Source: Fimbriiglobus sp. | Lineage (GTDB): Bacteria > Planctomycetota > Planctomycetia > Gemmatales > Gemmataceae | Assembly: GCA_025351325.1 (NCBI GenBank) | Contig: JANXWE010000313.1 | Location: forward strand, 1-41,244 | Direction: 5' to 3' | Length of the DNA stretch: 41,244 nt | Part shown: piece by piece, positions 22,072 through 25,035 of the stretch | Numbering within the stretch: the first letter of the stretch is position 1 | Layout: every line of letters starts with the position of its first letter | The notes under the pieces: generated by a model | What the model saw: the letters and a program-made list of their open reading frames with translations, nothing else | Databases searched by the model: none | What the model was told of the DNA's origin: nothing | Position numbers and translations under genes: made by a program

Positions 22072-22655
22072 GATTGCACGTGGTGGGCCAAGGCTTCGCG
22101 GAGACGTTGCCGGGCGTAAAACAGTCGGCTCATGACCGTGCCGATTGAAATCCCAAGGACTTCCGCCACTTCTCGATAACTCAAATCACCATCGACGTGC
22201 AAGACGAATGTCTGCCGTTGAACGACGGGCAAGACCGCGAGGGCATCGTCGAGTAGGGTTCGCAAATCGGCCCGTTCGAGACCATGATCGAGCGGGGTAC
22301 TGCGGGAATCGTACACACCTTGGAAGTCTTCGGTCGGTGCCAGAAACCGCGAGTCACGCCGATTTTTCGCACGCCCAATGTCGAGTGCCGCGTTACTGAC
22401 GATTCGCAGCAACCACGTCCGGAAGCTACTTTGGCCCCGGAAACGCTCCAAGTGCGACAACACATTCACGAAACCATCTTGCACGGCGTCGAGGGCGTCG
22501 GCCTCATGGCGGAGCAATCGACACGCGACCCGGTAGGCCACGGCATGATGCCGCTGCATCAGTGTGTCGAGCGAGGGGGGATCACCCTGTAGAATCCGCT
22601 CGATCAACTCGCGGTCGCTCGGTTCCGGCATCGCCATCCGCGGCAGGGGGTTCAT
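22068..22655 (-). CDS. ECF-type RNA polymerase sigma factor
   Basis: 195 residues. Region 2 spans about 25-95 (helix DALDAVQDGFVNVLSHLERFRG, with SSFRTWLLRIVSNAALD) and region 4 about 130-190 (DLSYREVAEVLGISIGTVMSRLFYARQRL, a clear helix-turn-helix). It directs transcription of a small regulon, likely including this operon. ATG 22655 is favoured by a weak AGGAT upstream; ATG 22664 is possible. The operon reads sigma, anti-sigma, secreted protein, binding-protein/permease fusion, ATPase. This links an envelope-signal sigma factor to amino-acid uptake. Confidence 0.9.
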   Translation of the reverse strand: MNPLPRMAMPEPSDRELIERILQGDPPSLDTLMQRHHAVAYRVACRLLRHEADALDAVQDGFVNVLSHLERFRGQSSFRTWLLRIVSNAALDIGRAKNRRDSRFLAPTEDFQGVYDSRSTPLDHGLERADLRTLLDDALAVLPVVQRQTFVLHVDGDLSYREVAEVLGISIGTVMSRLFYARQRLREALAHHVQS

Positions 22656-22827
22656 TGTGGGCATCCTGGTAGATTCAGACGGCCGAACTCCCTTCGGCAT
22701 TCATCGAAAACATCGTACGCCACCGCTACGACAAATGCGATTACGAATTTTTGTCGGTCTTGCCCGAATTTCCCGATCTTCCAGAATCACTCCACCCATC
22801 TCCCGCCGACTGCCGATTCTAACATCA

Positions 22828-23550
22828 ATGGCTTACCAAGTTCAGCTTGATGCGTTCCACGGCCCGCTTGACCTTCTCCTCTATCTTGTGAAGAAGGAGG
22901 AAGTCGATGTGTTGGAGATTTCCATCTCCCGGCTGGCGGATCAATTCCTCGTCTATTTGCAGACCGTGCGGCAGCTCGATGTGGAATTCGCCGGGGAATT
23001 CTTGGTGATGGCCGCCACACTGATGGAAATCAAGAGTCGGGCACTCCTGCCCCAGACGGAAGATGCTGCAAACGAAGCGGATGCGGTCGATCCACGTCGG
23101 GAACTCGTCCGGCAACTTTTGGAATACCGGCAGTTCAAGGACGCCGCCGCGAAGCTGGAAGAGCAGGCCGAAAAACATGCAGCCCGGTACCGCCGACATC
23201 CTTCTGAATCGATGGTGGTTGCCGGCATGGCGGTGGTGCGTTCGGTGGAACTATGGGACTTGGTGAGCGCCTTCGCCCGCTTGCTACGAGAAACGAGCAC
23301 GAATCAGCCCCAGGCCGTGGTGACCGACGACACCCCGCAACATGTTTACGAAGCCCGAATCCTGGCAGCGCTTGCAGAAACGGACGATCTCGATTTCAGC
23401 GAACTGTTCGAGCGACCCTACGAGAAACTACGGCTCATCGGTATCTTCCTAGCACTGCTCGAACTCATCAAAGCCGGCCGGGTGACACTGAGCCAAGATG
23501 ACCCCTTCGGCCCCATCCGCGTACGGTTTGTTTTGCGTTTGGTCGGGTAA
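22828..23550 (+). CDS. scpA: Segregation and condensation protein A
   Basis: 240 residues of kleisin ScpA. The N-terminal FHGPLDLLLYLVKKEEVDVLEISI is diagnostic, followed by the ALMEIKSRALLP-type helix and a C-terminal winged helix (FLALLELIKAGRVTLSQDDPFGPI). ScpA bridges SMC heads with ScpB to compact and segregate the chromosome. The ATG at 22828 fits the family start, although the frame is open to 22564 and no strong ribosome site is seen. It starts 170 bases from the divergent sigma factor gene. scpB and smc are not in the window. Confidence 0.95.
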   Translation: MAYQVQLDAFHGPLDLLLYLVKKEEVDVLEISISRLADQFLVYLQTVRQLDVEFAGEFLVMAATLMEIKSRALLPQTEDAANEADAVDPRRELVRQLLEYRQFKDAAAKLEEQAEKHAARYRRHPSESMVVAGMAVVRSVELWDLVSAFARLLRETSTNQPQAVVTDDTPQHVYEARILAALAETDDLDFSELFERPYEKLRLIGIFLALLELIKAGRVTLSQDDPFGPIRVRFVLRLVG

Positions 23551-23614
23551 AATTGGAAGTGCAAGGGTCTTCTTGTTGATCTCGGAAAACTCATCACACC
23601 ACCAAAGTTGCATT

Positions 23615-23731
23615 GTAGGAATGGGGCTTTGATACGTAATCGGATTCGGCGTCCAAATCATTGGACTTACGTCGATCACGTAAGGACTTACGTCGAGAAA
23701 ATCGAATTACGTATCAAAGCCGTAGGAATGG
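23615..23731. mobile_element. MITE-like element with 16-bp terminal inverted repeats
   Basis: A 97-base core (23625-23721) begins GGCTTTGATACGTAAT and ends with its exact reverse complement. It is bounded on both sides by the 10-base direct repeat GTAGGAATGG (23615-23624 and 23722-23731), which looks like a target-site duplication. Inside, GGACTTACGTCGA occurs twice (23663-23675 and 23684-23696). No open frame, so it would need a transposase in trans. Confidence 0.65.
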
Positions 23732-23813
23732 CCTAAAATCTTCTCGAAATGTTCAAAGTCGATGCCGATTCCGATTCCGATGAGTCTGCCGATTAATTTT
23801 CAAGGAGATGACG

Positions 23814-23897
23814 ATGGCATGGGGTGAAGTCGGTGATGAAATAGCAAAACATATTAGGTACCCCACTGCCGAATGTAAAAATTTCAACATTTCATAA
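23814..23897 (+). CDS. Possible 27-residue small protein
   Basis: An ATG at 23814 follows AAGGAG (23803-23808) at five bases' distance, one of the best ribosome sites in the window. It opens a frame of 27 residues beginning MAWGEVGDEIAKHIRYP and ending in TAA. It may be a true small protein, a leader peptide for the ABC ATPase gene downstream, or the surviving start of a deleted gene. I do not recognise it. Confidence 0.3.
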   Translation: MAWGEVGDEIAKHIRYPTAECKNFNIS

Positions 23898-24030
23898 ATC
23901 ACCTTCATCCTTCGCGCAATGACACGCCAGTTGGCAACACAAAAGGGTTGTTTTCCTCTTGTGCCAATCCCATCTCTTTGCTATCTAGCCGAAATTGCGG
24001 AACTCACGACGGACGGCCCGAGGATCGGCT

Positions 24031-25035
24031 GTGGCCACGGATGCCGCGGCTCTGGTGATCGAAACGTCGCACTTGACGAAGATCTACCAGAACCGCCAAA
24101 TCGCTTTGAACGACGCCACTTTGGCCATCGAGCCGGGGACGGTGTTGGGGCTCCTCGGCCCCAACGGCGCCGGCAAAACCACGTTCCTGCGGTTGGTACT
24201 CGGGTTGCACACACCCACGGCCGGGTGGGCCAAAGTCTTCGGCAGTCGGATGTCCCCGAACGCCGCGGCACTGCGCCGTCGCATCGGCTACATCCCAACG
24301 AATCCCCAGTTTCCCAAGGGCATGACGCCCATCGTCTACTTGGATTACATCGGTCGACTCTTCGGAATGCCTTCCAATTCGCGGAAACCTAAACTCGCGG
24401 CGCTGATTCGCGCGGTTGATCTGCTGCCACACGCTGGGGAACCGATTGCCTATTTCACACCCGGCATGACGGCACGTTTGGCCGTCGCGGCCAGTCTCAT
24501 CAACGAGCCCGATTTGCTCATTTGGGACGAACCGACGCACGGCCTCGACATCGAAGCGCGCCGGTCGATGCTCGAACTCATCAAACGACTGGCGGCCGAT
24601 AAGACGCTGATTTTGAGCAGCCACAACCTCACCGATGTCGACGAGGTGTGCAATCACGCGGCCGTGCTGAACAAGGGCCAGTTGATTTTCCAAGGCAGTC
24701 TGCAAGATCTCAAAGGTCGCATCCGCAAGAATCATTACGAATTGGACATTGAGGGTGATCAGAAATCGATTGCCAAGACGGTGCAGCAGATCAAAGTGAT
24801 GAAAGAAGTGGGGATGGCTACACTCCGGCACCGCCGGTTGGAAATGAAACTGGTCGACGACGTTCCGAATTCGGGCGTGCTGGCGATGATCTTCCAGACG
24901 ATGTCCGACAACAAAGTGGTGCTGGTCGGCATGCGCAGCGTCGGGATGCAGACCGAACAAGCCTATTTGGACATGGTGGAAAAAGAAGAACAGCGCGGAT
25001 TCACCCGGTTGTACCAATCGGCCGAGGCCGCGTGA
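24031..25035 (+). CDS. ABC transporter ATP-binding protein
   Basis: 334 residues from a GTG at 24031 with GAGGA seven bases upstream; a TTG at 23995 is less likely. Walker A GPNGAGKTT at 43-51 and Walker B LLIWDEPTHGLD are intact, as is the switch histidine in LSSHNLTDVDE. The signature is degenerate: YFTPGMTARLAVAAS in place of LSGGQ, which may weaken ATPase dimer contacts. A C-terminal domain of about 110 residues follows. The ABC-2 permease at 25618 is the likely partner, with a VOC gene lying between them. Confidence 0.85.
   Translation: MATDAAALVIETSHLTKIYQNRQIALNDATLAIEPGTVLGLLGPNGAGKTTFLRLVLGLHTPTAGWAKVFGSRMSPNAAALRRRIGYIPTNPQFPKGMTPIVYLDYIGRLFGMPSNSRKPKLAALIRAVDLLPHAGEPIAYFTPGMTARLAVAASLINEPDLLIWDEPTHGLDIEARRSMLELIKRLAADKTLILSSHNLTDVDEVCNHAAVLNKGQLIFQGSLQDLKGRIRKNHYELDIEGDQKSIAKTVQQIKVMKEVGMATLRHRRLEMKLVDDVPNSGVLAMIFQTMSDNKVVLVGMRSVGMQTEQAYLDMVEKEEQRGFTRLYQSAEAA

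Follow-up and report, generated by a model that had tools for sequence, protein, structure and literature searches.

Positions 23615-23731 of the window, the whole 41,244-nucleotide stretch of Fimbriiglobus sp. DNA analyzed here, raise the question of whether a short segment bounded by repeats is a mobile element and, if so, which enzyme moves it. A sequence-only reading had described perfect 16-base inverted ends on a 97-base core, exact 10-base repeats on either side, and an internal 13-base repeat, and all of these features are confirmed (Table 1). The inverted repeat that begins with the perfect ends GGCTTTGATACGTAAT reaches 22 nt at 91% identity, and the 97-bp body is flanked by two exact copies of GTAGGAATGG. 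With at most 32 codons, the element has no room for a transposase gene. The DNA strand of the element and its flanking duplications has a fold with z = -7.2, none of 200 shuffled sequences being equally stable. The location is intergenic, between an ORF at 22564-23550, which we take to be ScpA-like, and one at 23995-25035, presumably of the ABC type. In a genus search, the matches to these two genes fall on separate contigs in each of three congeners, so that no empty site can be read there; on the same basis, the adjacency of the two ORFs around the element may be recent.

Table 1. Coordinates of the MITE and its parts in the window.
Feature	Position	Strand	Remark
Target-site duplication, left copy GTAGGAATGG	23615-23624		identical to 23722-23731
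MITE, 97 bp, non-autonomous	23625-23721		seven matches in its own genome; all five full copies flanked by duplications
Left terminal inverted repeat GGCTTTGATACGTAAT	23625-23640	+	
Core direct repeat GGACTTACGTCGA, 13 bp, copy 1	23663-23675	+	block GGACTTACG also seen in GGCTTTG MITEs from three further genera
Core direct repeat GGACTTACGTCGA, 13 bp, copy 2	23684-23696	+	
Right terminal inverted repeat GGCTTTGATACGTAAT, minus-strand reading	23706-23721	-	
Target-site duplication, right copy	23722-23731		

The feature is a genuine 97-base non-autonomous transposon. The sequence-only reading had named the joint lack of a second copy and of an empty site in close relatives as evidence against a mobile element. 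This does not apply here, as further copies exist: a search of the host genome (G000), assembled in 382 contigs totalling 5.09 Mb, returned seven matches, namely five full-length copies, one on contig C15 that has lost its left end, and a diverged one on C115 that carries a short palindromic insertion and a 10-bp duplication with one mismatch. Each of the five full-length copies is flanked by its own exact 10-bp duplication (GTAGGAATGG, GTGACACATA, GATACGGAAA, ATCCATCCTC, and CCACGACATG), all mutually different, and a chance origin is therefore excluded. A search for the 16-mer end with up to two mismatches gave 17 matches in the same genome, compared with none for the reversed control. At 98 bp, the remaining four full-length copies are longer by one base, which the window copy lacks beside its left end; the copies on C251 and C273 have a perfect inverted repeat of 19 bp. 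When the flanks are rejoined without the MITE, four of the five sites lie within a frame that is open for more than 90 codons, and up to 158. The C251 and C273 copies, the two that were checked, close this long frame. The interrupted frames are putative genes; the one interrupted on C273 found nothing but itself among 59 genomes.

Two larger elements of the host genome have ends similar, but not identical, to those of the MITE and an equal duplication length. The first, on C83, is 3,727 bp long, with ends GGCTTTGTAACGCATT identical over 16 bp and the 10-bp duplication CAAGAATCGG. It contains an intact ORF for a transposase of 409 aa and three ORFs of 174-251 aa on the opposite strand. The second is split by an assembly gap, C49 ending and C285 beginning inside it; GGCTTTGCTACGGAAT is found at both outer ends and CTCAGCGCAC (10 bp) on both flanks. 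The last bases of C49 hold, on the minus strand, a frame that by eye resembles a transposase C-terminus. Each end of the split element is followed by two ATTCCGTATCA motifs, of which the genome has six overall and the reversed control none. By eye, the C49/C285 ends agree with the MITE end at 14 of 16 positions and the C83 ends at 12 of 16. A complete relative of 3,922 bp, with both 16-bp ends as in the split element and the 10-bp duplication CCTCCCGCGC, is present in G112, a genome of the same family, and its transposase is 66% identical to that of C83. The proposal of a non-autonomous MITE-like transposon thus agrees both with the further copies, which have duplications of their own, and with larger elements that combine similar ends with a transposase gene or its tail. 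The search for transposases with the same termini succeeded in part: similar ends occur in C83 and C49/C285, but a complete autonomous element ending in exactly the same 16-mer was not found among the assembled contigs. The closest match is an isolated right end, GGCTTTGATACGGAAT (L034:9117-9132, on C274), with one mismatch to the MITE end and no partner within the 9.4 kb examined; it is perhaps part of a broken or longer element. Another unpaired end, GGCTTTGTAACGGAAA (L036:6804-6819, on C15), is followed by a TGTAACG motif, resembles the C83 left end, and lies at a distance of about 3.5 kb from the C15 MITE copy.

The transposase of these elements consists, in the G112 protein, of a SWIM zinc finger (Pfam, E 2e-5) located N-terminal to a DDE_Tnp_1 domain (E 1.5e-20). 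In an alignment of 15 relatives, including C83 and G112, the SWIM residues C47, C49, C59, and H61 (C83 numbering) are invariant, as are D213 and D288, while E348 is nearly so; D213, D288, and E348 form a putative catalytic triad, as read from the motifs. The top NCBIfam model for the G112 protein is IS5_2 (NF033579), with 99.5 bits against a cut-off of 140, while IS903 scores 352. An hhalign comparison of the transposase profile with IS903 covers 265 columns (97.6%, E 2.6e-12), and the 307-aa IS903 protein can be aligned only from profile column 101, the SWIM part having no counterpart. The enzyme is a distant relative of IS903. In a plasmid collection of 72,556 records, it matches 213 records, each with less than 60% identity and with coverage below 80% of the query; the matches listed (40 of the 213) are IS5-family or unnamed and have 20-33% identity. 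Among those listed are annotated transposase relatives of the IS5 family, namely, ISAba10, ISRm33, ISRhba5, ISRusp1, ISPko1, and ISPpa3.

Relatives of the transposase (E <= 1e-40) are encoded in 23 of 397 genomes class-wide and in 241 stretches of a GTDB-based collection, the best 80 of which come from several bacterial phyla and from archaea. These 80 loci and C83 were searched for a GGCTTTG-type 7-bp end, with one mismatch allowed, and for an exact duplication, with lengths of 7-12 permitted. This delimited both ends at 48 of the 81 loci, with a 9-bp duplication in 41 and a 10-bp one in 7; a relaxed end search added none of the remaining 33. A control with up to 20 shuffled 7-mers at the same 81 loci gave no case at 9 or 10 bp and 21 cases at 7, 8, 11, or 12, of which the 18 at 11-12 are taken to be shifted readings of real ends.

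In two genomes, MITEs and larger elements agree in duplication length. In the host genome, it is 10 bp in all five full MITEs and both larger elements, while in G014 it is 9 bp in the larger element assigned to this genome (L174) and in all three measurable MITEs among four matches, the fourth being severed by a contig end. Of two MITEs in G114, a genome of the same genus as G112, one has an exact 10-bp duplication and the other a 10-bp duplication with a mismatch, and the MITE of G102 has a 9-bp one. Copies with 10 bp and one or two mismatches were found in G082 and G097, respectively, and a further G082 copy has no duplication. The seven rows with a 10-bp duplication are spread over the transposase tree, with 6 changes among 47 labelled rows (L182, with 8 stops, was omitted), so that the target stagger of the parent group seems to shift repeatedly between 9 and 10 bp. 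A group table gave 7 changes of duplication length, compared with a shuffled mean of 6.8. We have also considered 10 bp as the mark of one clade (Fisher p = 0.0076, 3 of 4 vs 4 of 44), but the clade had been picked after seeing the tree, on which the label does not cluster, and the claim was dropped. The suggestion that the uncommon 10-base length points to a particular transposase family holds to the extent that the group found makes duplications of 9 bp or 10 bp, but the latter is not limited to one clade.

On the basis of these results, we consider it very probable that the MITE depends for its movement on a DDE transposase acting in trans, one from the group with IS903-like ends. The transposase would bind the 16-19 bp MITE ends, move the MITE, and join it to target strands cut with a 10-bp stagger; gap repair would then create the duplication. 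Judged by the terminal bases shared, the best source of the acting enzyme would be the split C49/C285 element or a close unassembled relative, while the C83 enzyme is an intact but more distant candidate.

An alternative, to which we assign only a small probability, is that the MITEs are spread by another transposase with a GGCTTTG end, such as that of a classical IS903-type element elsewhere in the genome. GGCTTTG ends and 9-bp duplications are indeed typical of classical IS903-group elements, and no complete autonomous element was found to carry the exact MITE end. However, both larger elements of the host genome combine the GGCTTTG end of the MITE with a 10-bp duplication, and a SWIM-type enzyme is intact in the same genome, whereas the duplications are 9 bp in IS903 itself and in the eight IS5/IS903 entries, of 1,050-1,054 bp, in the part of PMC3281130 consulted.

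The core of the MITE extends the comparison to other genera of the family. A class-wide search for paired CGTAAGTCC gave hits in 8 of 397 genomes, while the reversed control gave at least two, in G133 and G225. The pair lies inside GGCTTTG MITEs of G000, G014, G114, and G102, whose outer ends differ (GGCTTTGATACG, GGCTTTGCAACG, GGCTTTGCTACG, and GGCTTTGCACAA); another G014 match (C815, L209) has no such ends in the stretch examined, in G036, G065, and G080 the pair is part of another short element, and in G158 it falls within neither kind. The GGACTTACG block is among the best-conserved stretches of the alignment of MITEs from four genera. Neither the C83 nor the G112 element contains the core 9-mer, and of the 48 delimited elements 2 have it, with one occurrence each; the MITE therefore did not arise by simple internal deletion from any element found here. 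The core may be a protein-binding or otherwise functional site or a relic of shared descent; alternatively, it may belong to an old common body whose ends change to follow the resident transposase.

Such conservation across genera, together with the strong fold and the position of the window copy between long ORFs, would also be compatible with a static, non-mobile repeat family that serves the cell, for instance as a regulatory hairpin. We consider this improbable, more so than the involvement of another transposase. The target is duplicated separately at each full copy, and the five different duplications speak against a static repeat as the sole explanation. In addition, a scan of 23300-24100 with Rfam gave no family at threshold, and promoter-like and terminator-like sites are at background level only. 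That the copies are remnants of recombination between the ends of larger elements, as the extra end-like motifs near those ends could suggest, is highly improbable, because one core kept in four genera and intact duplications in all five copies would be unexpected and the core is absent from C83.

Mobilization in trans, the preferred reading, has a proposed parallel. The closest known system, going by the portion of PMC6382973 consulted, is MITEAba12 of Acinetobacter, which is 113 bp long (97-98 bp here) and likewise has no transposase gene, 16-bp ends starting with GGCTTTG, and a single duplication length, and for which mobilisation in trans by the co-resident ISAba12 with matching ends was proposed. 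It differs in its duplication, 9 bp instead of 10 bp, and in its parent, since according to the same portion ISAba12 is 1,039 bp long with one gene, whereas the candidate parents here are larger (C83, 3,727 bp) and have extra ORFs and a SWIM-bearing transposase. ISAba10 is entered in a table of that source with GGCTTTG ends and a 9-bp duplication. The MITE alone is an ordinary, already known kind of element.

The parents, on the other hand, were compared with IS903 as found on an E. coli chromosome (L221), where it has ends GGCTTTGTTGAATAAATC, the 9-bp duplication TAGTTAACC, a length of 1,057 bp, and one annotated gene. The GGCTTTG inverted ends, delimited at 48 of 81 loci, and an alignable DDE-type transposase are shared with IS903, as is the 9-bp duplication in 41 of the 48 relatives, but not in the host-genome elements. 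The G112 protein stays below the cut-off of the curated IS5 model, and the transposase-only layout of about 1.05 kb is found in none of the 48, all of which are longer, at 2,140-7,953 bp (median 4,015.5), and encode at least one ORF of 100 aa besides the transposase. From these comparisons, the parent group differs from the IS903 group in its SWIM domain, its cargo, and, partly, its duplication length.

The cargo of the delimited elements has a recurring theme. Scanning 143 of the 144 listed ORFs, which were chosen mechanically so that some are spurious (the one omitted is a 152-aa C83 ORF overlapping the transposase start), gave as recurring Pfam families N6_Mtase (7 members), Eco57I (6), HSDR_N_2 (4), N6_N4_Mtase (3), C-5 methylase (2), Mrr_cat (2), AlwI (2), and a SocA-like antitoxin (2), where one protein may match several and the counts are drawn from 25 of 47 families. 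PADLOC and NCBIfam agree with Pfam on the cargo. Of ten larger cargo proteins, hand-picked from nine elements, nine match restriction or modification families and one, from L140, has no match. The control set comprised 134 ORFs from outside these elements, at most three per locus. Twelve of its families were matched by at least two members, and none of these is a restriction or DNA methylase family; with 25 of 129 families considered, single matches may be hidden. The theme is seen in the relatives, while the cargo of the host-genome C83 element (L086:3330-5307) gives no NCBIfam hit up to E 0.1 and does not convincingly resemble the cargo of C285 or G112. For the C285 cargo (L032:3-1476), Pfam gave no match up to E 0.01; one of its ORFs has a weak likeness to TIGR04255 (23.9 bits, cut-off 30).

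In the portions of the open-licence literature consulted, no SWIM-bearing IS5-type transposon with cargo and no Planctomycetes MITE with these ends were found described, which is weak evidence. Taking these points together, we lean slightly toward the joint view that the parents constitute a distinct, apparently undescribed transposon group with IS903-like ends, a transposase with an N-terminal SWIM domain, and a duplication of 9 bp that repeatedly shifted to 10 bp, a group that occurs in bacteria and archaea, nearly always has passenger genes (prominently restriction-modification and antitoxin-like ones), and acts as a general vehicle for small defence cassettes, its MITEs retaining a common core as their ends follow the local transposase. 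If the group is general, it would explain the compact movement, in units of a few kb, of single restriction-modification or toxin-antitoxin cassettes among distant bacteria and archaea. The MITE itself serves as a small, clean marker for a group whose G112 transposase misses the cut-offs of the curated IS models tried. Related transposases with different duplication lengths, such as those of C83 (10 bp) and L123 (9 bp), which are 57% identical, would permit a direct test of what determines the stagger of DDE enzymes.

It should also be mentioned that a CGTAAGTCC...CGTAAGTCC pair is present in another short inverted-repeat element, found in G036 (L197), G065 (L198 and L205), and G080 (L199), the ends of which resemble TACTACAGCGCAGGCTTG.
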